DNA of 64,000 nt, from contig NZ_SELO01000009.1 in assembly GCF_004146235.1 (NCBI RefSeq), positions 1 to 64,000 on the forward strand, written 5' to 3'. Shown piece by piece: positions 30,858-43,672 of the stretch (its first letter is position 1; every line of letters starts with the position of its first letter). The notes beneath the pieces were generated by a model. It worked only from the letters and a program-made list of their open reading frames with translations. It made no database searches and was not told where the DNA came from. The translations under genes were made by a program, and so were the position numbers. Source of the stretch: Tropicimonas sp. IMCC6043. GTDB taxonomy: Bacteria; Pseudomonadota; Alphaproteobacteria; Rhodobacterales; Rhodobacteraceae.

Positions 30858-30973
30858 AATTTACACATTCTAGCCATTCTCATTTTTGAATGTTAGAAAA
30901 TGAACCCTTTGCGGGAACGAATAGATGCCTTGATTTTATATCTTTCGGCGACGTTCAATTCACACATTCGTAG
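30858..30973. repeat. Pair of imperfect direct repeats upstream of octaheme gene
   Basis: AATTTACACATTCTAG at 30858-30873 and AATTCACACATTCGTAG at 30957-30973 match except for one substitution and one inserted base, 99 bp apart. The downstream copy ends two bases before the FNR-like site. They could be binding sites for a second regulator. Confidence 0.45.
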
Positions 30974-30974
30974 A

Positions 30975-30988
30975 TTGTCATGGATCAA
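30975..30988. promoter_or_regulatory. FNR/CRP-family binding site upstream of octaheme operon
   Basis: TTGTC, ATGG, ATCAA has the 14-bp TTGAY-N4-RTCAA layout of FnrL/Dnr-type sites, with one perfect half (ATCAA) and one near match. It is centred 84 nt before the ATG at 31065. A centre at -41.5 would put transcription start near 31023, leaving a leader of about 42 nt. This suggests low-oxygen or nitrogen-oxide control. Confidence 0.5.
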
Positions 30989-31064
30989 GGACAACCCTTT
31001 TCCCCCCTTCCCATATCAACCCGCGCGCGAGCCCCGGGCATCCTGGAGACGGAGGGACGTGTAT

Positions 31065-32708
31065 ATGATTTCCGGAAAAGGACTGGCCATCCTGGGCCTC
31101 ACCCTTGCATTGTCAGGGTCAGGCGCCGCCTTGGCTCAAGAGACCGAGGCGCCGCCGGCGAAAGCCAGCGGCGCAACGGTCGATCACTCGAAACTTGAGG
31201 CGTTACAGAAAGACTTCGCCTCCGGTCCGGAAGTGACCGCCGCCTGCCTGAGCTGCCACACGGAGGCAGCGGATCAGGTCAAGCAGTCGATACACTGGAC
31301 CTGGGACTACACGCACCCGGGGACAGGTCAGGACCTGGGCAAGGACAACGTCATCAACTCCTATTGCGTCGCCGTGGCCGGCAACGAGGCGCGCTGCACC
31401 TCCTGCCACATCGGGTATGGCTGGACGGACATGAACGAACCGCCGCCGCAGGACGCGAACGCGGTGGATTGCCTCGTCTGCCACGACACCTCGGACACCT
31501 ATGCCAAGATTCCGGCAGGCGCCGGCAAGCCGTTCGGCAAGGAGATCAAGGAAGGCGCCATGACCAACATGGGTAAGCCGGCGCAGCCGGTGGACCTCAT
31601 GAAGGTCGCCCAGAGCGTCGGCCTGCCCGACCGCGACAATTGCGGCAACTGCCACTTCTACGGTGGCGGCGGCGACAACGTGAAGCACGGCGACCTGTCG
31701 TCGGCCCTGCACCACCCGACCGAAGCAATCGACGTCCACATGGCGGAAGAAGGGCTCAACTTCGAATGCCAGACCTGCCACGTGAGCGAACAGCACATCT
31801 GGCACGGATCGCGCTACAACGTGACCGCGAAGGACACGGAAGGGTCCGGCCTTCCCGGCCAGCGCCGCGACGTGGCCACCTGCGAAAGCTGCCACGGAAC
31901 GGAGCCGCATGACGCCTTCTCGCTCATCGGCTTCAAGCTGAACAGCCACCGCGACAAGATTGCCTGCCAGACCTGCCACATCCCCGAATATGCCAAGGGC
32001 GGCGCTCCGACGAAGCTGATGTGGGACTGGTCGACCGCTGGCAAGATGGGCGACGACGGGAAACCCACGAAAGCAAAGGGCTACGAGACCCGCGACGGCA
32101 AGAAATTCGTCACCTACGACTCGATGAAAGGCGATTTCGAGTGGGGCGAATACCTGAAACCGGACTATTTCTGGTTCGACGGCCAGGTCGAATACGCCAA
32201 TGCCGATCACGAGATCGACCCCTCGGGCGTGGTCGAGGTCAACATGATCTCCGGCCGCCAGGACGACGACAAGAGCCGGATCTGGCCGTTCAAGGTCATG
32301 CGCGGCAAGCAGCCCTATGACACCGAGCGCAACCGGCTGCTCTACCCGCATCTCTTCGGTCCCGGGTCCGACACTGCCTACTGGGGCAAATGGGACTGGA
32401 ACAAGTCGCTGGAGGCCGGGGCGGAAGCCTCCGGAACCGAATATTCCGGCAGCTTCGACTTCGTCTCGACCGAGATGTACTGGCCCGTCACCCACATGGT
32501 CGCGCCGGCGGAAGACCACGTCGCCTGCGAGGAGTGCCACAAGGAAGGCGGGCGGCTGGCCAATATCGCCGGCATCCACATTCCCGGCGCCAACCCGATG
32601 GGTCCGGGCGGAAAACTCGGCGCTCTGATCCTGATCCTCACCGCCCTCGGTGTGGTCATCCACGCGATTGCGCGCTTCTTCGGCCGCAAGAACATGAAGG
32701 AGCAATGA
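31065..32708 (+). CDS. Octaheme cytochrome c, tetrathionate-reductase (OTR) family
   Basis: The 547-residue exported protein has a signal peptide (residues 1-24, ending ALA). Eight CxxCH haem-binding motifs have their first cysteines at 61, 111, 136, 193, 235, 273, 301 and 488, and a C-terminal membrane helix spans about 518-540. Eight haems, with a long haem-free stretch (306-487) before the last, match the OTR/hydroxylamine-oxidoreductase-like octaheme group, whose members reduce tetrathionate, nitrite or hydroxylamine in vitro. The physiological substrate cannot be read. ATG 31065 has GGAGACGGAGGG upstream; an in-frame ATG at 30900 would bury the signal peptide. It leads directly into a cytochrome b gene. 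Confidence 0.88.
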   Translation: MISGKGLAILGLTLALSGSGAALAQETEAPPAKASGATVDHSKLEALQKDFASGPEVTAACLSCHTEAADQVKQSIHWTWDYTHPGTGQDLGKDNVINSYCVAVAGNEARCTSCHIGYGWTDMNEPPPQDANAVDCLVCHDTSDTYAKIPAGAGKPFGKEIKEGAMTNMGKPAQPVDLMKVAQSVGLPDRDNCGNCHFYGGGGDNVKHGDLSSALHHPTEAIDVHMAEEGLNFECQTCHVSEQHIWHGSRYNVTAKDTEGSGLPGQRRDVATCESCHGTEPHDAFSLIGFKLNSHRDKIACQTCHIPEYAKGGAPTKLMWDWSTAGKMGDDGKPTKAKGYETRDGKKFVTYDSMKGDFEWGEYLKPDYFWFDGQVEYANADHEIDPSGVVEVNMISGRQDDDKSRIWPFKVMRGKQPYDTERNRLLYPHLFGPGSDTAYWGKWDWNKSLEAGAEASGTEYSGSFDFVSTEMYWPVTHMVAPAEDHVACEECHKEGGRLANIAGIHIPGANPMGPGGKLGALILILTALGVVIHAIARFFGRKNMKEQ

Positions 32709-32709
32709 C

Positions 32710-33369
32710 ATGGCCGAACGCACGATCATGATCTACCCGCCGTTCGAGCGGTTCTGGCACTGGGGACAGGTGATCCTGGTGCTGGTGATGACCTTCACCG
32801 GCTTCCGGCTCTATGGCATCCACGAGTGGATCCCCTACAGCCAGGCGGTGGTGGTCCACACCTACTCGGCGCTGCTCCTGATGCTGCTCTGGATCTTCGC
32901 GATCTTCTGGCACTTTACCACCGGCACCTGGAAGCACTACGTGCCGACCACCAACGGCCTCTGGCAGGTCATGCGCTTCTATTCCCTTGGGATCTTCAAG
33001 GGCGAGAAGCACCCCTACCGGAAGGCCTACTGGCGCAAGCACAATCCGCTGCAGGCGATGGCCTACCTGTCTCTGAAGCTGCTGATCTTCCCGACGATCT
33101 GGATCACCGGCATCGCCTACCTGACCTACCGCCTCTGGGAGCCGGCGCCGAACTCGGGCTTCTGGATCGAGATCGTGGGAAATCTCCATGTGCTCGCGGC
33201 CTTCGGCATCCTCTCCTTCATCGTCATGCATCTCTACCTTATGACCACCGGCCATTCCGTCTGGAAGCACATCCGGCCGATGTTCAGCGGCTATGACGAC
33301 ATCGTCCTGACGGAGACCGAGGAGGCCTATCTGCGCGAGGACGAGCCGAGACGGATCCGCGACGCCTGA
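32710..33369 (+). CDS. Membrane cytochrome b (thiosulfate-reductase/b561-like), OTR partner
   Basis: This is a 219-residue four-helix membrane protein of the cytochrome b/b6 domain type. Candidate haem-b histidines lie in FERFWHWGQVIL (helix 1), VVVHTYSALLL and IFWHFTTG (helix 2), and ENLH-like NLHVLAAFG with IVMHLYLMTTGH (helix 4). It would oxidise quinol and pass electrons to the periplasmic octaheme cytochrome, which has its own C-terminal anchor. The ATG follows the octaheme stop by 1 nt. A strong terminator follows. Confidence 0.85.
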   Translation: MAERTIMIYPPFERFWHWGQVILVLVMTFTGFRLYGIHEWIPYSQAVVVHTYSALLLMLLWIFAIFWHFTTGTWKHYVPTTNGLWQVMRFYSLGIFKGEKHPYRKAYWRKHNPLQAMAYLSLKLLIFPTIWITGIAYLTYRLWEPAPNSGFWIEIVGNLHVLAAFGILSFIVMHLYLMTTGHSVWKHIRPMFSGYDDIVLTETEEAYLREDEPRRIRDA

Positions 33370-33550: not shown

Positions 33551-36310
33551 TCAAACCAGACCGTGGCTTTCGAGGCTGCGGGCCTCCTGGGCCTTGAACT
33601 GGTGGAAACGCGGCATGAACTTGTCCCATTCGACGGTGTGGGCGTCGAATTCCGGACCGTCGATGCAGGCATGCATGCGGACCGGCTTGCCGTCCCTGAC
33701 CACCGGCACCATGCAGGCACCGCACATGCCGGTGGCGTCGACCATGATCGAGTTGAGCGAGACCACCGTCTTGACGCCATAGGGCTGCGTCAGGTCGCTC
33801 ACCGCGCGCATCATCATCGGCGGGCCGACCGAGATCACCTCCGCGAGCTTGCGCCCCTTGGAGACATTGCCGGCCTTCAGCATTTCTTCCAGCGGCCCGG
33901 TGACGAAGCCGTGCACGCCGAAGGTGCCGTCATTGGTGCAGTAGATGATGTCGAGCTTGTCGCCATATTGCGCCTTGAGCCGGCCCATCCGGTCATCGTC
34001 GCCGGTCCAGAACAGGTGCCCGGCCGAGCGGAAGCCGATGATCATCGTGGCGTGGTTGCCCTTGGCCAGATGCGCCTTGGCGATCGGCAGGATCGCCGGA
34101 AGGCCGACGCCACCCGCGGTGAAGACGACCGTCTCGTCCTCGCCATAGGCATGCACGTCGCTCGGGCGGCCGAGCGGCCCTGCGATGCCGGCAAAGGCAT
34201 CGCCCTCATGCATCAGGTTGATCATCTTGCTCGACGTGCCGAGGCCCTGGATCACGATGTCGATCGTGCCCTTCTCGGCATCCCAGTCGGCCAGCGTCAG
34301 CGGGATCAGCTCGCCGTTCTCGGAGGCGAGGACGCGGACGAACTGCCCGGCCTTCGCCGCCCTGGCCACGACCGGCGCGTAGACCGACATCTCGACGATG
34401 CCCTCGGCGACGTCCCGATGCATGACGATCGCCTGTTTTGCCTGACCGAGATCGGTATAGGCCTTTGCCCGCTTGACCCGGTCGCGCACTTCCTCGGCGC
34501 TGAAGGGAATGCTGCCGACGATCTGCCGCGCCGCGGCCTGGCCGTCGCCCGCGGCGAGGATCGCCGTGGAGCCGCCGCGCGCCGCGTCGCCGCCGGTATA
34601 GACATCCTTGACCGAGGTCTCCTGACCGTCTTCGACCTCGATCGTTCCCCATTTGGAGAGCTTCAGGTTCGGCTGCGCCTCGGGGATGATCGGGTTGGAC
34701 TTGTTGCCGAGCGCCATGATGACGAGATCGGCCGGCATCTCGATCACCTCGCCGGTGGGTTGCGGCCGGCGCCGGCCGGAGGCGTCCGGCTCGCCCAACT
34801 CGTTCACGTCGACAATGGCGTGGGTGACGAAATGCGTGTGGCTGTCGCCGACGAACTCCTTCGGACCGCGGAGCTCCGAGAGGATGATCCCTTCTTCCAG
34901 CGCGTGGTGCAGCTCCTCGACCCGGCAGGGCATCTCGGCCTGTGTGCGCCGGTAGACGATCTGCACCTTGGCGCCGAGCCGCTTGGCGGTGCGCGCGGCG
35001 TCCATCGCCGTGTTGCCGCCGCCGATGACGAGGACATTTCTGCCTTCGATATCGGGCAGCGGCGTCTCGAAGTCCGGGCTGCGGCCGCGCATCAGGTTGA
35101 CGCGGGTGAGGAATTCGTTGGCAGACATGACGCCGTTCAGGTGCTCGCCCGGCACGTTCATGAAGGTGGGCAGGCCGGCGCCCGAGCCGACGAAGATCTT
35201 CCAGAAGCCGGCCGCCTTGAGGTCCTCCAGCGTCGCCGACTTGCCGACGACGAAGTTTCGGACGAACTTACCGCCCAGAAGGTCGATCTTCTGTACAACG
35301 TCGTCGATCAGCGTGTTGGGCAGGCGGAACTCCGGGATGCCGTAGCGCAGCACGCCGCCAAGCTCATGGAACGCCTCGAAGACGGTGACCGGGTAGCCCT
35401 CGCTCGAAAGCAGGTAGGCGTTGATCAGCCCCGAGGGGCCGGAGCCCACCACCGCGATCGGCGGCTTCTCGGCGCGCTCCCAGGGGGAGACGATGCCGCG
35501 GAACCGCTCCAGCAGGTCGCCATCCGCGAGCTTCTCGTGCTCGGGCAGGTACCATTCGAGCTGGCCGATCTCGATCGGCCGGTTGGTGTGCTTGCAGACG
35601 CCCTGGCACTGGTGTTCCTGCGGGCAGACGCGGCCGGTGACATTGGGCAACGGGTTGGCGCTCTCGATCAGCTCAAGCGCCTGCCTGATCTTGCCCTTGC
35701 CGAGGAGGTCGATCATCTCGGGGATGTGGATCTTGACCGGGCAGCCGCCGATCTTCTTGGCCTCGGCCTCGCGGACCTTCTGCTTCAGCACGCCGAGCTC
35801 GCAGGGCCGGTCCTCGCATTGCTTGTCCCGCATCGCCTCGAGCCAGACGAAAAGGTCCACCTCGCGCAGGGAGTAGCCGAGCGCGCGGTAGCCGAGATAC
35901 CCGGTGTTCACCAACTCGAAATCGTGGCTGCGCTCCTCCGGCGGGCGCACATAGGGCGGAATGTAGCTGTCCGCCGGCCAGCCCTCTGACAGCCCCTTGA
36001 ACATCGGGTAGCGTCCCGAGAGATGGGCGTCGAGCGCGCGCACGAACTTGCGCTTGAACTTCAGCGGCAGGTCCCAGAGGAAACGCTGCAGCACGGTGGA
36101 CATCTCGTCCTCCTTGAGCAGCAGGTTCCAGAGCACGCCGATGAATGTCTCGCCGAGCTCGGGCTGCTGGAATTCCCAGGCCATGGCCTGGGTTCCATCG
36201 GCGACGAAGACGGACCTGAGCGAGCGGGGATCCGCCGCCAGGTGCCGTTTCAGGACCTCGATCTGTTGCTGGAACAGCTCGTCCTGGGTGTCGGCCACGA
36301 CCACGTTCAT
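33551..36310 (-). CDS. NfnB-NfnA-type fused NAD(P)H:ferredoxin oxidoreductase
   Basis: The 919-residue flavoprotein joins three parts. Residues 1 to about 160 are an unrecognised helical region. About 160-620 is a GltD/NfnB-type unit: Fe-S cysteines at 165, 170, 190 and in GRVCPQEHQCQGVC; FAD motif VVGSGPSG at 287; NADP motif VIGGGNTAMDAART; and a GGDAARGGSTAILAAGDG end block. About 640-919 is a NfnA/SudB-type ferredoxin-NADP reductase with a [2Fe-2S] site (C863, C866, C882 in MCGAC and HAC). Nfn enzymes couple reduced ferredoxin and NADH to NADPH formation. ATG 36310 overlaps the PFOR stop (ATGA). Whether this fusion bifurcates electrons is unknown. Confidence 0.85.
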   Translation of the reverse strand: MNVVVADTQDELFQQQIEVLKRHLAADPRSLRSVFVADGTQAMAWEFQQPELGETFIGVLWNLLLKEDEMSTVLQRFLWDLPLKFKRKFVRALDAHLSGRYPMFKGLSEGWPADSYIPPYVRPPEERSHDFELVNTGYLGYRALGYSLREVDLFVWLEAMRDKQCEDRPCELGVLKQKVREAEAKKIGGCPVKIHIPEMIDLLGKGKIRQALELIESANPLPNVTGRVCPQEHQCQGVCKHTNRPIEIGQLEWYLPEHEKLADGDLLERFRGIVSPWERAEKPPIAVVGSGPSGLINAYLLSSEGYPVTVFEAFHELGGVLRYGIPEFRLPNTLIDDVVQKIDLLGGKFVRNFVVGKSATLEDLKAAGFWKIFVGSGAGLPTFMNVPGEHLNGVMSANEFLTRVNLMRGRSPDFETPLPDIEGRNVLVIGGGNTAMDAARTAKRLGAKVQIVYRRTQAEMPCRVEELHHALEEGIILSELRGPKEFVGDSHTHFVTHAIVDVNELGEPDASGRRRPQPTGEVIEMPADLVIMALGNKSNPIIPEAQPNLKLSKWGTIEVEDGQETSVKDVYTGGDAARGGSTAILAAGDGQAAARQIVGSIPFSAEEVRDRVKRAKAYTDLGQAKQAIVMHRDVAEGIVEMSVYAPVVARAAKAGQFVRVLASENGELIPLTLADWDAEKGTIDIVIQGLGTSSKMINLMHEGDAFAGIAGPLGRPSDVHAYGEDETVVFTAGGVGLPAILPIAKAHLAKGNHATMIIGFRSAGHLFWTGDDDRMGRLKAQYGDKLDIIYCTNDGTFGVHGFVTGPLEEMLKAGNVSKGRKLAEVISVGPPMMMRAVSDLTQPYGVKTVVSLNSIMVDATGMCGACMVPVVRDGKPVRMHACIDGPEFDAHTVEWDKFMPRFHQFKAQEARSLESHGLV

Positions 36311-39300
36311 TTGATGATCTCCGAGTCGCAATTCGCGGCCACCTTGGCGACGCGCGTCTTGAGCGCGTCGGTGATCTCGACCTTCTCGAGCGCACCCGGG
36401 ACCATGTGGGCCACCTGTTTCACCTCGCCATCCACGACGATCTTGGTCAGCTCGAAGAGCTCGGGGATCTCCTGGTAGCAGGTCTTGCAATCCGAACAGC
36501 GGGGCACGTCCTCCTCGCGGAGATAGGGAATGCCCGGGCCGCCCGCTTCCGGTGCCGCGGTGGGCGCCGGGGCCGGTGCCGCGCCGGCGACCGGGGCAAG
36601 CGCGCCGGTCAGGCCGACCGCAGCAGGCGCTGAAGACGCCGCCGCGAGCTGGCTCATGCCGGAGGCGATAGAATCCATCGCCGCCTCGCGGGCCTCGACC
36701 GCCTCCTCGTAGCGCTGCTGGAGCGCTTCGACTTCGGCGTGATGGGCTGCGTCGAGCTTCTCGACCTCCTGGCCGGCGAGGTGCTGCAGCGTCCGCCAGG
36801 ACCGCCGGCGCTCCTCGACGAGGTGGACGACGGTGTTGCCGACCTCGAGCTTGATGAGGCGCTTCGCGGCATCCGTGGCGAGGATATACGGCACCTTGTT
36901 GGCACGCTCCGCCTTGGGAAGGTTGATGAAGTCCTCGATCGGCACGCCGTTGGCATTGGCGGCCAGCGGACGGAACTGCTTCTTGAAGCGGGTCTCGTCG
37001 AAGGCGAAATGCGCCGGGGTCAGCGTCACGTCCTTCAGCTTGAGCGCGCCATCCTCGACATATTCGAGGGTGAAGGTCGTCCAGTCCTTGTCGACCGCCG
37101 GGTTGCCCTCGAGCGAGAAGCGTTCCTCGATCGTCTCGCCCGCCTTCGGGTCATGCACGAAGAGCGGTGCCACGCGGGCCTCGACGGCGAGCTTGGCACG
37201 GGCGGAGGCCGCCGCGTCGGCGATGCCGTGTTCGGCCTGGCAGGGCGTGTAGACATCGAGCAGCGCCGGCGAGGAGCTGTGCTGCAGATATCCCATCAGG
37301 CTCTTGAGGAAGTGGCCGGGCATCGCGGTGGCGCTCTGCACGACGAAGACCTCCGGGTGGAAGGCGGCGATCATGCCGAGCTCCTTGCGGTCCTCCTGCT
37401 TGCCGGTCGAGGCCGGGCCGAAGCGGCTGAGGTCGCTGTCCTGCCCCGAGAGCGAGGCGGTGGACGCCTGCCCGCCGGTGTTGGAATAGACACCCGAGTT
37501 GAGCACCATCACCTTGACCGGCGTGTTCGAGGCAAGAAGCCGCGACAGCGCCCCAAAGCCGATGTCATAGGCCGCGCCGTCGCCGGAGATGTTGATCACC
37601 GTCGGCAGCATCGCCCGCTCCGCCTCCGAATAGTCTTGCCATTCGAACTTGCGGAAGAAGGCGTCGTCGGTGGCCGAGTCATAGGCATCGGCCAGTTCGA
37701 GCCTCGCGGTGCGCAGCGCCTTGAAGTCGACATTGGTCGCCGCCGTGATCCCCTCGAAGATCCCCTTGGAGAGCGCCGGGCCATCCTGGAACAGGCTGTT
37801 GACCCAGGGGTCCTGGTAGGGATTGTAGGGGAAGGTCGAAGCATAGACCGAAGAGCAGCCGGTGGCGTTCGCCACCACCATCGCCGCCGGGCCGTTTCCG
37901 GTCGGGCCGCCCTCCATCAGGAAGAGCCGCTTTTCGAGAACCTTGATGGCGTCCGCGATCCGCGCCCTGCGGGCCTCGTTGTCGGCAACCTGCGGCAGCT
38001 TGGCCTCCAGATCGGCGATCAGCCCCTCCAGCTCGCGCACATGTTTCTTGAGCTTGCGATCATGGATCGCGTGCGCCGCCGAGACGACCTGCCGGATCGC
38101 CGTCACCTCGCCGCAGCCACGGCAGGCACCGTGTCCGCCGGTGGTGGCGTAATAGGTGTCCCGGTCGAGCATCATCCGCTTGATGTCGCCGCCCGGATCG
38201 AAGGCGTGTTCGAGGAAGCGGGTGGGCGTGTTGGGGGTCTTCGACAGGAATTCGAACTCCGTCTGGAGCTTTTCAAGCAGCGGTTCGTCCTGCTTGGCCT
38301 CGGTCAGCGCGCCGGGGCCGCAAACCTCGATGCATTCGAGGCAGCCGGAGCATTTCCACGGGTCGACGACGACCGCGAAGAGGCCGCCCGAGCCGCCCCG
38401 CTCGGCCTCCATCGCGTCGAAGAACGGCCGCGTGCGGGCCACCGGCAGCAGCGCCGCGCCCTCGGCCAGAAGCTTGAGGTTGCGGCGCACGACAGCGCTC
38501 TCGGCCTCGATCGCCTCGACCGCCTCGGCGACCAGAACGCCGAAGGGCTTCGACTCCTTGCTGGCGAGATAGGCCGCGCGCACGGAGGCGCCGATCTCGT
38601 GGATATGCTCGCGCACCAGGTCGCGCTGGCCGGCGGGCATGTCGATTTCCTTCATCGCCGCCTTCAGAAGCTCGTCGATGTCGAAGACCGTGGCCGGGAT
38701 CGCGGCGTCCGGGCAGACCATCGTGCATTCGAGGCAGCCGGTGCAGAGCGACGTGTCGAGCACCGGAACATGGCGCCGGAACAGGCCCTTGTCGCGGCTT
38801 GCCGCGGTGCCCGAGGGCATGAACATGCCGACGCCTGGCATCACCGGCGCCTCGCCGATCGTGCCCTCGCGGAACGGCCGGGCGACCGTCTCCTCGTAAT
38901 ATTCCTGGTCGAACAGGCCGGTGGGCGAGGCATCCTGCGCGATCCGGCACATCGAACCGGAAATCGCGGGCGAGAAATGCGGCTCGAGATCGGCCGCCTC
39001 GGTCACCTCGGCAAACTCGGGCGCGGTGTAGTCGACCGCGATCGTTGCCGCGGCGCCGTCGCGGATCACCGCCATGTTGCCGTCGACCACCGCCTGGCCC
39101 TTGGCGCCAAATTTCTTGGCGATCTGGCTGCGGATCTTCTCCATCACCGCCTCTTCGGGCGCGCCCTCGGTGATGCGTTCGACATTGCCGCAGACCGCGC
39201 CGATGAAGGCGATGCCCATCATCCGCGTCTCGAGCTCGGGGCGCGGCGCGTGCTTCTTGGCGATAACGAAGCCGTCGAGCACGAAGAAGCGGATCTTGTG

Positions 39301-41295
39301 GTCGGTGATGTAGCGCCGCATCGACGACGGCATCTCTTTCCAGACCTCCAGCGGCGACAGCGAGGATTGCAGGATGAAGGTGCCGCCGTCGACCAGCCCG
39401 CGGAGCGGGTTGGAATGCACGAAGACCTTGTGGTCGGGCGAGACCACGACCTCGACATCCTCGAGATCCGCGTTGGTGATCTTCACCTCCTCGGGGCTCA
39501 GGGTGATGTAGTAATTCGTCGGCGCCCCGGATTTCTCCGAGCCGTATTTCGGCGCCGCCTTGGAATGCAGCCCGAGCGCGTTGGCAAGGATGTCGGTGAG
39601 CAGCTTGCCGGTGGCGATGGTGCCGTAGCCGCCGACCGAGTGGAAGCGGATCCGGAGCCCGCCATCGGGCAGGAGCCGCGGATTCGGCTTGGTCTCCAGC
39701 GCCATCAGTTCGGTCTCGGGATAGGCCGCGCGCAGCCGCTCCTGGAGCTCGGCGAGTTGCGGGCTCGGGGTCTTCGAGAAGAACTGGGAGCCCAGATAGA
39801 CGAAGGGCGCATTGCCCTCGTCCATGTTGTCATAGGCCGCGATCAGGTGGCGCGGTTGCAGGTCATGCGCGCCGAGCCCGAAGATCGCGGTGGTGAGCCG
39901 CGGCAGGGTCGACAGCGGCTGGATGCCCTCGTAGCGGATCCCGGCGGCATTCTCGACCGCCTTCAGCAGCGCCTGGTTGACGAGGCCGGTGAGCGCGGTC
40001 ACGTCGGAGCGTTCGAGGATCGTCACCGCCCGCTTGCCGGCGAGCGCAGCGACGACGTCGGCCTCCGGGAAGGGCTGGAGCATCTTGATCGACACGACGC
40101 CGACCTTGCGGCCCTGGCGGCGCAGATAGGCCGCGATCGCCTCGGCGTCGTCGGTGACAGAGCCGAGCCCGACGAGCACGGTTTCGGCATCGTCGCATTC
40201 ATAGCATTTCACCGGCGAATAGCTGCGGCCGGTCAAGTCGGAGTATTCCGCCATCGCCTCGCGCACGAAGCGCGGCACATCGCGGACGAAATGGGTGCGG
40301 TGGTCGACCGCGCCGGCCTGATAGTCCGGCTGGTTCTGCACGCCGCCCGTCAGGCCGGGGTTGTTCACGTCGACCTGCGCCGGGACGCGCTGCCGGGTGC
40401 CCTTCTCGTGCGAATTGACCCACTGGCGGCGCCACTGGGCATGAAGTTCTTCCGGCAGATGCGCGAGCGTCTCGGTCACGAGGTCGCCGTCATTGTCGAT
40501 CTCCACCGCCTCAGCATTGGCGTCGAGATAGTCGACGAGCGCGACGTAGTCGTCCTGGGCGAGATCCGAGCTGTGGCGGCCGAGATAGCGCTTAAGGTGG
40601 AAGACCCGGCCCTTGGAACCGAACAGCATCTCCTGGGCGACGGTGGGGCATTTGATCCGCCCTTCGGGATCGCCGACGAAGCTGCGGAGCAGGTCGTCCT
40701 CCGGCATCAGCACTTCGCTCATCATGTGCGAGGTGACGAAACCGTCCATCGCGTTGGCGACCGGGATCATCGACATCGAGGAGACCTTGTAGGAGATCGC
40801 CGCGAGATCCGCCGCCTCCTGCGGGTTCGAGCCGAAAAGGATGGTGTAGCCCGAGGGTAGCAGCGCATAGACGTCGTCATGACCGGCCATCACGTTGAGC
40901 GAGTGGCGCGACACCGACCGCGCGGCCACCTGCATCACGAAACCGCCGACCTTCTTGCCGACGGTTACGTAATGGCTCTCGATGCCGTAGAGGATCCCCT
41001 GCGAGGAGGAAGCGTTGGACACATACTGTCCACCGGTCAGCGCCGCGCCGAGCGCGCCCGACTGTGCCGAATGCTCGCCCTCGGGCTCGAAGAAGAACGG
41101 GTGGCGGCCCCAGATGTTGACACCCCCGCCGGCGCGGAACGCTTCGTAGATCTCGGCGATCTCCGTCGAAGGCGTGATCGGATAGCCGATCACGCCGCCG
41201 CAGACCTGCCCCATCACCTGGGCGATCGCGCCGTTGCCATGGATGACGGTGGGTACGCCAGGAAACTCCGGCGTCTTCTGAAGAGTATCTTTCAT
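36307..41295 (-). CDS. nifJ: Pyruvate(2-oxoacid):ferredoxin oxidoreductase, extended, with C-terminal ferredoxin-like domain
   Basis: This is a 1662-residue single-chain PFOR; usual ones are near 1200. In order it has domain I (GGVIGYPITPSTEIAEIYE), domain II (TVLVGLGSVTDDAEAIAAYL), the gamma domain (GYGTIATGKLLTDILANALG) and two [4Fe-4S] motifs (CTGCLECTMVCP near 850, CSGCLECIEVCG near 980). The TPP domain follows with proximal CRGCGEV near 1060 and GDGAAYDIGFGALSRLL near 1240. A charged coiled coil is inserted in the TPP domain, and a second coiled coil plus Ala/Pro linker leads to a C-terminal CSDCKTC...C ferredoxin-like domain (about 1600-1662). GGTGAG precedes ATG 41295; GTG starts up to 41307 are possible. 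It converts pyruvate and CoA to acetyl-CoA, CO2 and reduced carrier. Confidence 0.87.
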   Translation of the reverse strand: MKDTLQKTPEFPGVPTVIHGNGAIAQVMGQVCGGVIGYPITPSTEIAEIYEAFRAGGGVNIWGRHPFFFEPEGEHSAQSGALGAALTGGQYVSNASSSQGILYGIESHYVTVGKKVGGFVMQVAARSVSRHSLNVMAGHDDVYALLPSGYTILFGSNPQEAADLAAISYKVSSMSMIPVANAMDGFVTSHMMSEVLMPEDDLLRSFVGDPEGRIKCPTVAQEMLFGSKGRVFHLKRYLGRHSSDLAQDDYVALVDYLDANAEAVEIDNDGDLVTETLAHLPEELHAQWRRQWVNSHEKGTRQRVPAQVDVNNPGLTGGVQNQPDYQAGAVDHRTHFVRDVPRFVREAMAEYSDLTGRSYSPVKCYECDDAETVLVGLGSVTDDAEAIAAYLRRQGRKVGVVSIKMLQPFPEADVVAALAGKRAVTILERSDVTALTGLVNQALLKAVENAAGIRYEGIQPLSTLPRLTTAIFGLGAHDLQPRHLIAAYDNMDEGNAPFVYLGSQFFSKTPSPQLAELQERLRAAYPETELMALETKPNPRLLPDGGLRIRFHSVGGYGTIATGKLLTDILANALGLHSKAAPKYGSEKSGAPTNYYITLSPEEVKITNADLEDVEVVVSPDHKVFVHSNPLRGLVDGGTFILQSSLSPLEVWKEMPSSMRRYITDHKIRFFVLDGFVIAKKHAPRPELETRMMGIAFIGAVCGNVERITEGAPEEAVMEKIRSQIAKKFGAKGQAVVDGNMAVIRDGAAATIAVDYTAPEFAEVTEAADLEPHFSPAISGSMCRIAQDASPTGLFDQEYYEETVARPFREGTIGEAPVMPGVGMFMPSGTAASRDKGLFRRHVPVLDTSLCTGCLECTMVCPDAAIPATVFDIDELLKAAMKEIDMPAGQRDLVREHIHEIGASVRAAYLASKESKPFGVLVAEAVEAIEAESAVVRRNLKLLAEGAALLPVARTRPFFDAMEAERGGSGGLFAVVVDPWKCSGCLECIEVCGPGALTEAKQDEPLLEKLQTEFEFLSKTPNTPTRFLEHAFDPGGDIKRMMLDRDTYYATTGGHGACRGCGEVTAIRQVVSAAHAIHDRKLKKHVRELEGLIADLEAKLPQVADNEARRARIADAIKVLEKRLFLMEGGPTGNGPAAMVVANATGCSSVYASTFPYNPYQDPWVNSLFQDGPALSKGIFEGITAATNVDFKALRTARLELADAYDSATDDAFFRKFEWQDYSEAERAMLPTVINISGDGAAYDIGFGALSRLLASNTPVKVMVLNSGVYSNTGGQASTASLSGQDSDLSRFGPASTGKQEDRKELGMIAAFHPEVFVVQSATAMPGHFLKSLMGYLQHSSSPALLDVYTPCQAEHGIADAAASARAKLAVEARVAPLFVHDPKAGETIEERFSLEGNPAVDKDWTTFTLEYVEDGALKLKDVTLTPAHFAFDETRFKKQFRPLAANANGVPIEDFINLPKAERANKVPYILATDAAKRLIKLEVGNTVVHLVEERRRSWRTLQHLAGQEVEKLDAAHHAEVEALQQRYEEAVEAREAAMDSIASGMSQLAAASSAPAAVGLTGALAPVAGAAPAPAPTAAPEAGGPGIPYLREEDVPRCSDCKTCYQEIPELFELTKIVVDGEVKQVAHMVPGALEKVEITDALKTRVAKVAANCDSEIIK

Positions 41296-41571
41296 CGTGC
41301 TCACCACATTTCGATTGATCCGAGTCTAGGCGTCCATGGTCGGACGAAACATGCCGCCTATGGACACATCGCCTGACCGGCCCAGTTGTCCTCCCCCGGT
41401 GCGCGGATGGGTCACCGTAGCATATTATTTCGCCCGGGCAGCGGGTTTTGCGGCCTGCGAAAAATTGTGATCGCTAACCGGTTGCCTCTGTGACCGACTG
41501 CTTGCATATCGGGCAGGTCCACCGGGCGATCGGCATGTGATCCGAAGGGTTTCTGGAAACGTATTCCCGTC

Positions 41572-42351
41572 ATGCAATGTGAACATATCAGCGCAGAAAC
41601 CTTCCATGGACGCCGCGGCGGCCCGAAAAACAGCTTCCGATACGGTGTGGATTACGTTCTGGAGGATTTCTCGGACACACCGCGTCCGGGCCTCTATTCG
41701 CGGGACCGGTTCAACCTCTGGCATCTCGACAGCCGCAACCATGGCGGTCCGCGCAGCGACGGGCGCGGCGTTGAGTGGTTTCGCGAAGAACTTGCCGCGC
41801 GCGGATTTCCGCTCGCGGGGGCGCAACTGGTGCTCCTGGCACAGCCGGCCTTCCTGTGGTGGCGCTTCAGCCCGGTGAGCTTCTGGATCGCGCTGCGCGA
41901 CGGGCAGCCCTGCGCCTTCGTGGCCGAGGTCAACTCGACCTTCGGCCAGCGGCATTGCTATTTCTGCGCCCGGCCCGGCTTCGAACCGATCTCGGCCGGC
42001 GACCGGCTGGTGGCGGACAAGCTGATGCATGTCTCGCCCTTCCAGACGATCGCGGGGCAATACCATTTCAACCTCGACATGACCAAAACGGACATCCGCA
42101 TCCGCATCCTCTACCGCAATGGCGGCGAAGGCGTCGTGGCGACGCTCGCCGGCCGTCGTCGCGCGGCCAGCAACGCGAGCCTGCTTGCCGCTGCCCTGCG
42201 CCGCCCCTTCGGCAGCGCGCGAGTGCTCGGGCTGATCTACTGGCAGGCGTTGAAGCTCCGGATCAAGCGCGCGCCTTTCCTCGGCCGCCAGCCGGCGCCC
42301 GCAGCGCCACTATCGGACGGGCGGGAGGCGACGCCGGACGCCTCCGCCTGA
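41572..42351 (+). CDS. DUF1365-family protein
   Basis: This 259-residue protein matches the DUF1365 pattern. It has SFRYGVDYVLEDF at the start, LLAQPAFLWWRFSPVSFWIA in the middle, EVNSTFGQRHCYF, and the conserved DKLMHVSPFQTIAGQYHF followed by DIRIRILYRN. Members usually sit beside an FAD-oxidoreductase and cyclopropane-fatty-acid synthase genes; here it stands alone, divergent from nifJ. The C-terminal end is Arg/Pro-rich. No Shine-Dalgarno is evident before ATG 41572. Function is unknown. Confidence 0.75.
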   Translation: MQCEHISAETFHGRRGGPKNSFRYGVDYVLEDFSDTPRPGLYSRDRFNLWHLDSRNHGGPRSDGRGVEWFREELAARGFPLAGAQLVLLAQPAFLWWRFSPVSFWIALRDGQPCAFVAEVNSTFGQRHCYFCARPGFEPISAGDRLVADKLMHVSPFQTIAGQYHFNLDMTKTDIRIRILYRNGGEGVVATLAGRRRAASNASLLAAALRRPFGSARVLGLIYWQALKLRIKRAPFLGRQPAPAAPLSDGREATPDASA

Positions 42352-42472
42352 GCGCGGCCGCCGGTCGAACGAGCTTCCATAGAGCACCGGGCGGATGACA
42401 CCTTCCCTCCTCCTGCCATATCCCTGAAACATTCTGTCGCTACGCTCCGCCGAAACGCGATATTCCGGGCCC

Positions 42473-43672
42473 ATGACAGATCCCCAACCGTCCCGCCGCA
42501 ACGGCTCGCCGTCCGAAGTCTTCGCCGCCTTCCTCATGCTCGGCCTCACGTCCTTTGGCGGGCCGATCGCGCATCTGGGCTATTTCCGCACCGAGTTCGT
42601 CACCCGTCGCGGCTGGCTCGACGAGCGCGGCTTTGCCGATCTCGTCGCCCTCTGCCAGTTCCTGCCCGGTCCCGCGTCGAGCCAGGTGGGCTTTGCGATC
42701 GGGCTGATGCGCGCCGGCCCCCTGGGCGCCGCGGCGGCCTTCGCCGCCTTCACCCTGCCCTCTGCGCTCCTGATGATCGCTTTCGCGCTCTCGTCCGCCG
42801 CGCTCGACGGTTCCGTCGGCCACGGCGTGGTCTCCGGCCTCAAGATCGTCGCCGTTGCCATCGTCGCGCAGGCGGTGCTCGGCATGGCCCGGGCGCTCTG
42901 CCCCGACCGCGAACGCGCCGCCATCGCCGTCCTTGCCGTGGCCATGCTCGCCGCCCTGCCCGGCGCGCTCGGCATGATCGGCGCCATCCTCGCCGGGGCG
43001 CTTGCCGGGTTCGCGCTCGGCCGCGGCGAGACCGCCGGACGCGAGAACGGTCTCCCGCCGCCCCTCTCGCGGCGCGGCGCGCTGGCCTGCCTTGCAGGCT
43101 TCGCCGCGCTCCTGCTCGCCCTGCCCGTCCTCGCCGGGCTCACGCAGGGCCTCGCCCTCTTCGACGCCTTCTATCGTGCCGCCGCGCTGGTCTTCGGCGG
43201 AGGCCATGTCGTGCTGCCGCTGCTCGAGTCGGAAGTGGTCCGCCCGGGCTGGATCAGCGCGGAGGATTTCCTCGTCGGCTATGGCGCAGCGCAGGCGATG
43301 CCGGGACCGCTCTTCTCCTTCGCCGCCTACCTTGGAGCGCTCGGGCCGGCCCCGAACGGCCTCGCCGGAGCCGCGATCGCGCTCGCCGCGATCTTTCTCC
43401 CGGGCTTCCTGTTGCTGCTTGCCGTGCTGCCCTTCTGGGACGCGCTGCGCCGCCGTCGCGATGCCCAATCGGCATTGCAGGGGGCCAATGCCGCCGTGGT
43501 CGGCATCCTCGGCGCCGCGCTCTACGACCCGGTCTTTACTGCCGGTATCGGCGACATGGCCGATTTCGCCCTCGCGCTCGCCTGTTTCGTGCTGCTTGTC
43601 GCCTGGAAGGCCCCGCCCTGGGTCGCAGTCCTCGTTGCAGCGCTCGGAGGCATCGTCCTGTCCCTGGCGTGA
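42473..43672 (+). CDS. chrA: Chromate transporter ChrA
   Basis: This is a 399-residue two-domain CHR-family membrane protein. Each half begins with the signature region: LGLTSFGGPIAHLGYFRTEF near residue 23 with LCQFLPGPASSQVG near 60, and VFGGGHVVLPLLESEVV near 240 with YGAAQAMPGPLFSFAAYLG near 270. It exports chromate using the membrane potential; in many bacteria it may instead move sulfate-like anions. No chrB regulator adjoins it. It ends at a bidirectional hairpin. Confidence 0.9.
   Translation: MTDPQPSRRNGSPSEVFAAFLMLGLTSFGGPIAHLGYFRTEFVTRRGWLDERGFADLVALCQFLPGPASSQVGFAIGLMRAGPLGAAAAFAAFTLPSALLMIAFALSSAALDGSVGHGVVSGLKIVAVAIVAQAVLGMARALCPDRERAAIAVLAVAMLAALPGALGMIGAILAGALAGFALGRGETAGRENGLPPPLSRRGALACLAGFAALLLALPVLAGLTQGLALFDAFYRAAALVFGGGHVVLPLLESEVVRPGWISAEDFLVGYGAAQAMPGPLFSFAAYLGALGPAPNGLAGAAIALAAIFLPGFLLLLAVLPFWDALRRRRDAQSALQGANAAVVGILGAALYDPVFTAGIGDMADFALALACFVLLVAWKAPPWVAVLVAALGGIVLSLA

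Follow-up and report, generated by a model that had tools for sequence, protein, structure and literature searches.

A pyruvate:ferredoxin oxidoreductase with a tethered ferredoxin and an overlapping NfnB-NfnA fusion gene: a candidate two-gene electron-transfer unit in Tropicimonas sp. IMCC6043

We investigated a 64,000-nucleotide stretch of the genome of Tropicimonas sp. IMCC6043 (contig NZ_SELO01000009.1, positions 1 to 64,000; hereafter the window), in which the gene of a pyruvate:ferredoxin oxidoreductase (PFOR) with its own C-terminal ferredoxin overlaps the gene of a protein that fuses NfnB and NfnA. We propose, with a probability of roughly 0.6, that the two genes act as one functional unit, in which the tethered ferredoxin delivers electrons from PFOR to the coupled NfnB-NfnA fusion. 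A dedicated acceptor for this ferredoxin is supported by the adjacency of the two genes across genomes, the co-variation of their products, the linker that carries the ferredoxin and the alternative partners found beside related enzymes.

Pairing of the two genes was assessed in a collection scan that used only residues 1-200 of the fusion as the query and took in members with at least one of two peptide patterns; 95 relatives were confirmed and 80 loci were analysed. In 79 of these 80 loci the fusion gene is directly preceded, on the same strand, by the PFOR-ferredoxin gene, either whole or as far as the contig extends. Since this arrangement recurs so consistently among the scanned loci, chance adjacency can be ruled out. 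Constant adjacency had been put forward as a check in the original prediction, with pairs lying widely apart in relatives as the contrary outcome, and it was borne out apart from a single locus, L145, whose PFOR is on another contig. The start codon of the fusion overlaps the PFOR stop by 4 nt in 60/79 loci; in the window the two share ATGA at 36307-36310, so that the overlap noted earlier stands. The carriers are Tropicimonas, Aliiruegeria, Cohaesibacter, Rhodopseudomonas, Rhodoplanes, Blastochloris, Rhodopila, Roseiarcus, Rhodoferax, Accumulibacter, Magnetococcales and other metagenome-assembled genomes (MAGs). Moreover, the distances among the PFORs and among the fusions co-vary (Mantel r 0.936, a value reached by 0/2000 permutations; 68 rows).

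The module is patchy in its distribution, since in even draws from the class and the order only the Tropicimonas genome itself had it: the fusion was over the cut-off in 1/289 genomes of the class and the PFOR was found in 1/196 genomes of the order. That the pair might be a recent peculiarity confined to this genome was considered and dropped, as the collection scan gave 80 loci in many genera, which the even draws had thus missed. In a sample of the phylum, eight genomes of one genus carry the full PFOR, with the fusion adjoining in 8/8; six of them are also among the 80 loci. A wider conserved operon was considered and rejected: the sets of open reading frames common to at least 6 loci, the two genes aside, reflect synteny within Rhodopseudomonas, outside which no neighbour keeps a constant position; one further, loosely linked set occurs in 18 loci at varying places.

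The ferredoxin is joined to the last PFOR helix by a linker of 44-61 residues (median 49) in the 72-row alignments, from which our conservation counts are taken. Ala, Pro and Gly make up on average 51.5% of the linkers (range 25-68%) as compared with 25.7% of the whole proteins. In a structure model of PFOR residues 760-1662 (mean predicted local distance difference test score, pLDDT, of 74) the linker is predicted to be disordered, with pLDDT < 50 at model positions 794-829 (PFOR residues 1553-1588), and the ferredoxin that follows is separately folded, with moderate confidence. The linker has the make-up of a swinging arm and would presumably swing; we liken the proposed arm to the one that bears the lipoyl group in pyruvate dehydrogenase. 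The ferredoxin domain scores 28.0 bits against Fer4_15 (cut-off 22.4), and its four Cys and their spacing are kept in 79/79 loci, which confirms the C-terminal, four-Cys ferredoxin-like domain described in the original prediction.

The body of the enzyme has the features of the 2-oxoacid:ferredoxin oxidoreductase superfamily, namely POR_N, PFOR_II and POR domains, a thiamine pyrophosphate (TPP) domain and three sets of 4Fe-4S ligands, and Pfam also recognises the TPP domain and the internal 4Fe-4S domains. Each of the 12 cluster Cys is invariant (72/72 rows). Against TIGR02176, the model of homodimeric PFOR, the protein reaches 400.6 bits, below the cut-off of 911.35; by sequence it is related to homodimeric PFOR but divergent. 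Its YPITPS and VAAR motifs align with the PFOR of M. thermoacetica, and pyruvate is its probable substrate. The homodimeric PFORs of M. thermoacetica (6CIN) and D. africanus (1B0P) have the domain series and the internal clusters in common with the window PFOR; they are 1171 and 1231 residues long, whereas the window PFOR has 1662 residues and, unlike them, an extra C-terminal segment, the linker and the ferredoxin. An alternative start of the PFOR gene is the GTG at 41307.

PFORs with a similar tail were also found next to other partners. In four loci (L078, L079, L088 and L089, including Gemmatirosa and Persicobacter) there are long PFORs with a C-terminal single-cluster ferredoxin, the main segments being 35-37% identical, and no Nfn fusion was found in the stretches examined. 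These genes lie among rnf genes (RnfC, RnfD, RnfA and RnfE by model; RnfB over the cut-off in one of two scanned rnf-associated loci). Thus, the same long architecture as in the window PFOR is combined here with the membrane Rnf complex as the partner, as opposed to the Nfn fusion. We surveyed this association in a sample of the class to which one of the four genomes belongs, where 20/274 genomes matched. In all 15 genomes matching at 56-72%, rnfB and/or rnfC adjoins the PFOR gene (in one genome this is seen only on another contig piece), and the same is true of the PFOR-ferredoxin genes of L078, L079 and L088. The ferredoxin end was matched in all 15 genomes, and its Cys were present in 10/10 inspected on the plus strand; L171 of this set (L171-L185) is the L089 gene again. 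The rnf-associated sister family includes Persicobacter, Gemmatirosa and further genomes of the phylum of the window. Two distant PFORs (L186 and L193; 27-29%) also adjoin rnfB, and in these a separate ferredoxin stretch upstream replaces the tail.

Another arrangement occurs in the Tropicimonas genome itself, at a second locus (L090:4336-11893, contig C71) with the order nfnA-nfnB-korA-korB, followed by the gene of a 723-aa protein. This protein resembles the last third of PFOR (27% over 427 columns) and carries at its end a linker rich in Ala, Pro and Glu, followed by a ferredoxin. No match to the TPP domain or to NCBIfam was found for it, and it looks like a catalytically dead, degenerate PFOR tail that would serve as an adaptor. 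It is present in 5/289 genomes of the class sample, Tropicimonas included, and the nfnA-nfnB-korA-korB-adaptor order is seen in all five, in one of which nfnA and the ferredoxin are cut off by the contig ends.

The proposed acceptor scores 1678.8 bits against NCBIfam NF009415/PRK12779 over residues 8-918 (cut-off 1519), and Pfam finds Fer4_20 and Pyr_redox_2 followed by a C-terminal DHODB_Fe-S_bind, which places NfnB before NfnA, in the order originally predicted. Its structure model (mean pLDDT 79) matches the two Nfn subunits from P. furiosus as well as those from T. maritima, the identity being 43% (L) and 42% (S) to canonical NfnAB of P. furiosus (NfnI, 5JCA) and 42% (B) and 34% (A) to that of T. 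maritima (4YLF). The cofactor domains and R329, R454 and R455 are common to the fusion and to canonical NfnAB. The fusion, unlike the latter, is one chain in reverse order with a 160-residue helical extension, and it differs further by a distal Asp in place of Cys, a longer stretch before CPV, ELxPxT and Gx2EW. Residues 1-160 gave no Pfam match, and no fold search aimed at the extension alone was made.

R329 is invariant in 72/72 rows and aligns with R187 of T. maritima NfnB, which we take to be the N5 Arg of the bifurcating FAD; R454 and R455, presumably the two Arg of the NADP+ phosphate, are likewise invariant (72/72 rows each). The NfnB ligands are divided here into distal and proximal sites, a division that we assume by reference to dihydropyrimidine dehydrogenase. 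All proximal ligands are invariant. In the distal motif, RCx2Cx4Cx3CPV of Nfn is replaced by RDx2Cx4C-x14-19-CPV, with 14-19 residues ahead of CPV as compared with 3 in canonical NfnB, and the first Cys is D162 in 72/72 rows. The region was also aligned pairwise with the canonical NfnB that this genome encodes, which keeps the normal Cys at this position. Since the replacement sits in the distal, ferredoxin-side cluster, the altered site is the one where ferredoxin should dock. Of the NfnB motif GRVCPQExQCx3Cx13Gx2ER, the first part (GRVCPQExQCx3C) is kept; x9 follows in the window and then Gx2EW, with the Glu retained. The [2Fe-2S] ligands of the NfnA half are invariant (72/72 rows), and the motif reads DATGMCGACM-x14-CI in the window; the NfnA motif as published is DGTGMCGxCRx10CV, with Asp and three Cys as ligands (PMC6405883).

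Fused NfnB-NfnA is already known, as PRK12779 and as Pattern C. In the consulted parts of Liang 2019 (PMC6405883), Pattern C is a fused Nfn with the NfnA part C-terminal, exceeding other fused forms by about 200 residues and assigned to Actinobacteria, Alpha- and Gammaproteobacteria, and fused forms are stated to be uncharacterised. The window fusion fits Pattern C by comparison with this published description, not with accessions. The same parts list R. palustris among the facultative carriers of an Nfn homologue and refer to PFOR in a figure legend dealing with the order of nfn genes; they say nothing of a PFOR as the partner of Pattern C proteins, of a tethered ferredoxin or of the Asp ligand.

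The altered motifs of the fusion may also be read in another way, namely that it no longer bifurcates and is a plain ferredoxin:NADP+ reductase, the pair being then a bacterial analogue of pyruvate:NADP+ oxidoreductase. The Asp in place of the first distal Cys and the lengthened stretch before CPV agree with this, as does the a-FAD strand, in which ERxPxT has become ELxPxT in 71/72 rows and FVxPxT-like in one. We consider this improbable, as R329 and the other cofactor ligands are invariant, including the whole NfnA [2Fe-2S] site, for which a simple reductase would have no use. Eukaryotic pyruvate:NADP+ oxidoreductase, in which PFOR is fused to a CPR-type flavoprotein, has the same aim of wiring PFOR to NADP+ reduction but differs in the kind of flavoprotein, in its covalent fusion and in having no known Nfn-type coupling.

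For the PFOR-ferredoxin and fusion acting as one unit, we infer a physical complex with direct electron transfer, and likewise its stoichiometry, substrate and direction. PFOR would convert pyruvate and CoA to acetyl-CoA and CO2, or the reverse, with single electrons passing through its internal 4Fe-4S clusters. The ferredoxin, on a swinging arm of about 49, mostly Ala, Pro and Gly, residues, would collect these electrons and dock at the Asp-containing distal cluster of the translationally coupled fusion, and at the NfnB FAD they would join electrons from NADH for the reduction of NADP+. Electron-bifurcating activity of the fusion would follow Nfn chemistry by analogy. The overall reaction in the forward direction would be pyruvate + CoA + NADH + 2 NADP+ -> acetyl-CoA + CO2 + NAD+ + 2 NADPH, and in the reverse mode NADPH would drive pyruvate synthesis. 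Direct handover to an Nfn-type flavoprotein had been claimed in the original prediction; the disordered linker, the co-variation and the two further partner systems fit this part of the claim, while its description as an oxoacid-to-NAD(P)H machine is too simple, because known Nfn couples both ferredoxin and NADH to NADP+ (PMC6405883).

The module could instead be mainly reductive, with bifurcation from NADPH supplying low-potential electrons to the tethered ferredoxin and PFOR working as a pyruvate synthase in the assimilation of acetate or CO2. This is consistent with the retention of most bifurcation-related residues in the fusion and with the presence of Rhodopseudomonas, Rhodoplanes, Blastochloris, Rhodopila and Rhodoferax, genera known for photoassimilation, among the carriers. 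However, the carriers also include Tropicimonas, Aliiruegeria and Cohaesibacter, and phototrophy as the reason for the module is weakened because a search of the Tropicimonas genome for PF00124, the family of the photosynthetic reaction centre, was negative. The direction of flux is not set by the sequence, and we regard a mainly reductive role as somewhat unlikely.

Several observations weigh against one functional unit with direct transfer. The adjacency and the co-variation would be expected under co-regulation no less than under direct transfer, and a free ferredoxin pool could still serve the pair. In L145 (a Ca. Thiosymbion MAG, short contig) the two genes do not abut: the approximately 240 bases before the likely fusion start do not encode a PFOR end, and a full PFOR with the tail (59%) lies on another contig (L209), where it ends about 375 bases before the contig end with no trace of the fusion in that stretch. 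Three of the 72 linkers are not rich in Ala, Pro and Gly (25-30%, below 35%). In the fusion, the Arg of Gx2ER is W253 in 72/72 rows, the a-FAD strand is changed as given above, the Asp ligand may impair the distal cluster instead of tuning it, and the NfnB cluster region is of low confidence in the model (pLDDT < 50 at 167-190 and 224-240). Some relatives of the rnf and kor sets also fall against or outside the pattern. Five of the 20 genomes matching in the Rnf survey reach only 29-48%. In four of these (G902, G926, G1038 and G1008) the short flanks showed no Rnf gene or ferredoxin; rnfB accompanied by a separate upstream ferredoxin stretch, in place of a tail, is seen in G854 and for a second copy in G1030 (27%); and in G170 and G031 of the class sample, nfnA-nfnB occurs with neither the kor genes nor the adaptor in the region retrieved.

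The tail ferredoxin could instead be a mere exit relay from PFOR to the free pool of ferredoxin or flavodoxin, with the fusion co-transcribed for balance and no specific docking between the two. Co-regulation alone would yield the adjacency, the L145 genes do not lie together, and other PFORs work with free ferredoxin. On the other hand, Nfn-type and Rnf-type enzymes each keep one partner in the loci examined, and a constant partner for each type makes a pool donor unlikely; the invariant, unusual ligand in the distal cluster of the fusion also speaks for the tethered ferredoxin having an acceptor of its own. We judge the exit relay unlikely.

The coordinates of the features discussed here are collected in Table 1. 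Two further groups of genes flank the module in the window. At 30900-33369, on the opposite strand just downstream, there are genes for a multihaem c-type cytochrome (PF11783) and a cytochrome b561-type protein. At 41572-43672 a DUF1365 protein is encoded beside the module, and the next gene resembles a chromate transporter by eye, as a candidate only.

Table 1. Features of the PFOR-ferredoxin and NfnB-NfnA genes, given as positions in the window.
Feature	Position	Strand	Basis or remark
PFOR with C-terminal tethered ferredoxin, 1662 aa	36307..41295	-	intact frame; full-length relatives exist
POR_N TPP-binding domain, residues 35-212	40660..41193	-	Pfam
PFOR core domain II (PFOR_II), residues 370-445	39961..40188	-	Pfam
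POR gamma-type domain, residues 555-748	39052..39633	-	Pfam
First internal 4Fe-4S motif, C851, C854, C857, C861	38713..38745	-	Pfam; 72/72 rows
Second internal 4Fe-4S motif, C982, C985, C988, C992	38320..38352	-	Pfam; 72/72 rows
Ala/Pro/Gly-rich linker, residues 1552-1599	36499..36642	-	62% Ala, Pro and Gly in the window protein
Tethered single-cluster ferredoxin, residues 1599-1661, CxxCxxC-x49-C	36313..36501	-	Fer4_15
GGAG, likely ribosome-binding site of the fusion	36319..36322	-	8 nt before ATG; direct reading
NfnB-NfnA fusion, 919 aa	33551..36310	-	intact frame; PRK12779, fits Pattern C Nfn
N-terminal all-helical extension, residues 1-160	35831..36310	-	structure model; no Pfam match
NfnB cluster region, D162, C165, C170, C239 (distal); C190, C229, C235, E252 (proximal)	35555..35827	-	72/72 rows at every position
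NfnB FAD and NADP(H) domains, residues 285-588, with R329, R454, R455	34547..35458	-	Pfam; invariance
NfnA half, residues 624-915, FAD/NAD domains and [2Fe-2S] site D858, C863, C866, C882	33566..34441	-	domain matches, alignment, fold match

In the literature we found no account of the PFOR partner, the tethered ferredoxin, the acceptor Asp or the Rnf and Kor parallels, an absence that is weakly tested, as enzyme names containing a colon, such as pyruvate:ferredoxin, are not usable as search terms. Beyond the window, we tentatively suggest, at slightly less than even odds, that in Proteobacteria, and in at least one member each of Bacteroidota and Gemmatimonadota, a modular swinging-arm ferredoxin connects oxoacid oxidoreductases by a private route to a dedicated energy-coupling partner. 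It would come in three variants: PFOR-ferredoxin with the NfnB-NfnA fusion, PFOR-ferredoxin with Rnf, and KorAB with the dead PFOR-tail ferredoxin adaptor and NfnAB; the invariant distal Asp would then be an adaptation of docking and tuning to the tethered donor.

Flavin-based bifurcation is generally regarded as a process mainly of strict anaerobes that draws on soluble ferredoxin from a common pool. If our proposal is true, the built-in ferredoxin would show how facultative and aerobic proteobacteria can keep low-potential electrons private under oxygen. The pair would also offer a purifiable two-component system for the study of electron channelling, of an Asp-containing distal cluster and of the direction of PFOR flux, and the three partner variants would amount to a natural experiment on the choice of acceptor.

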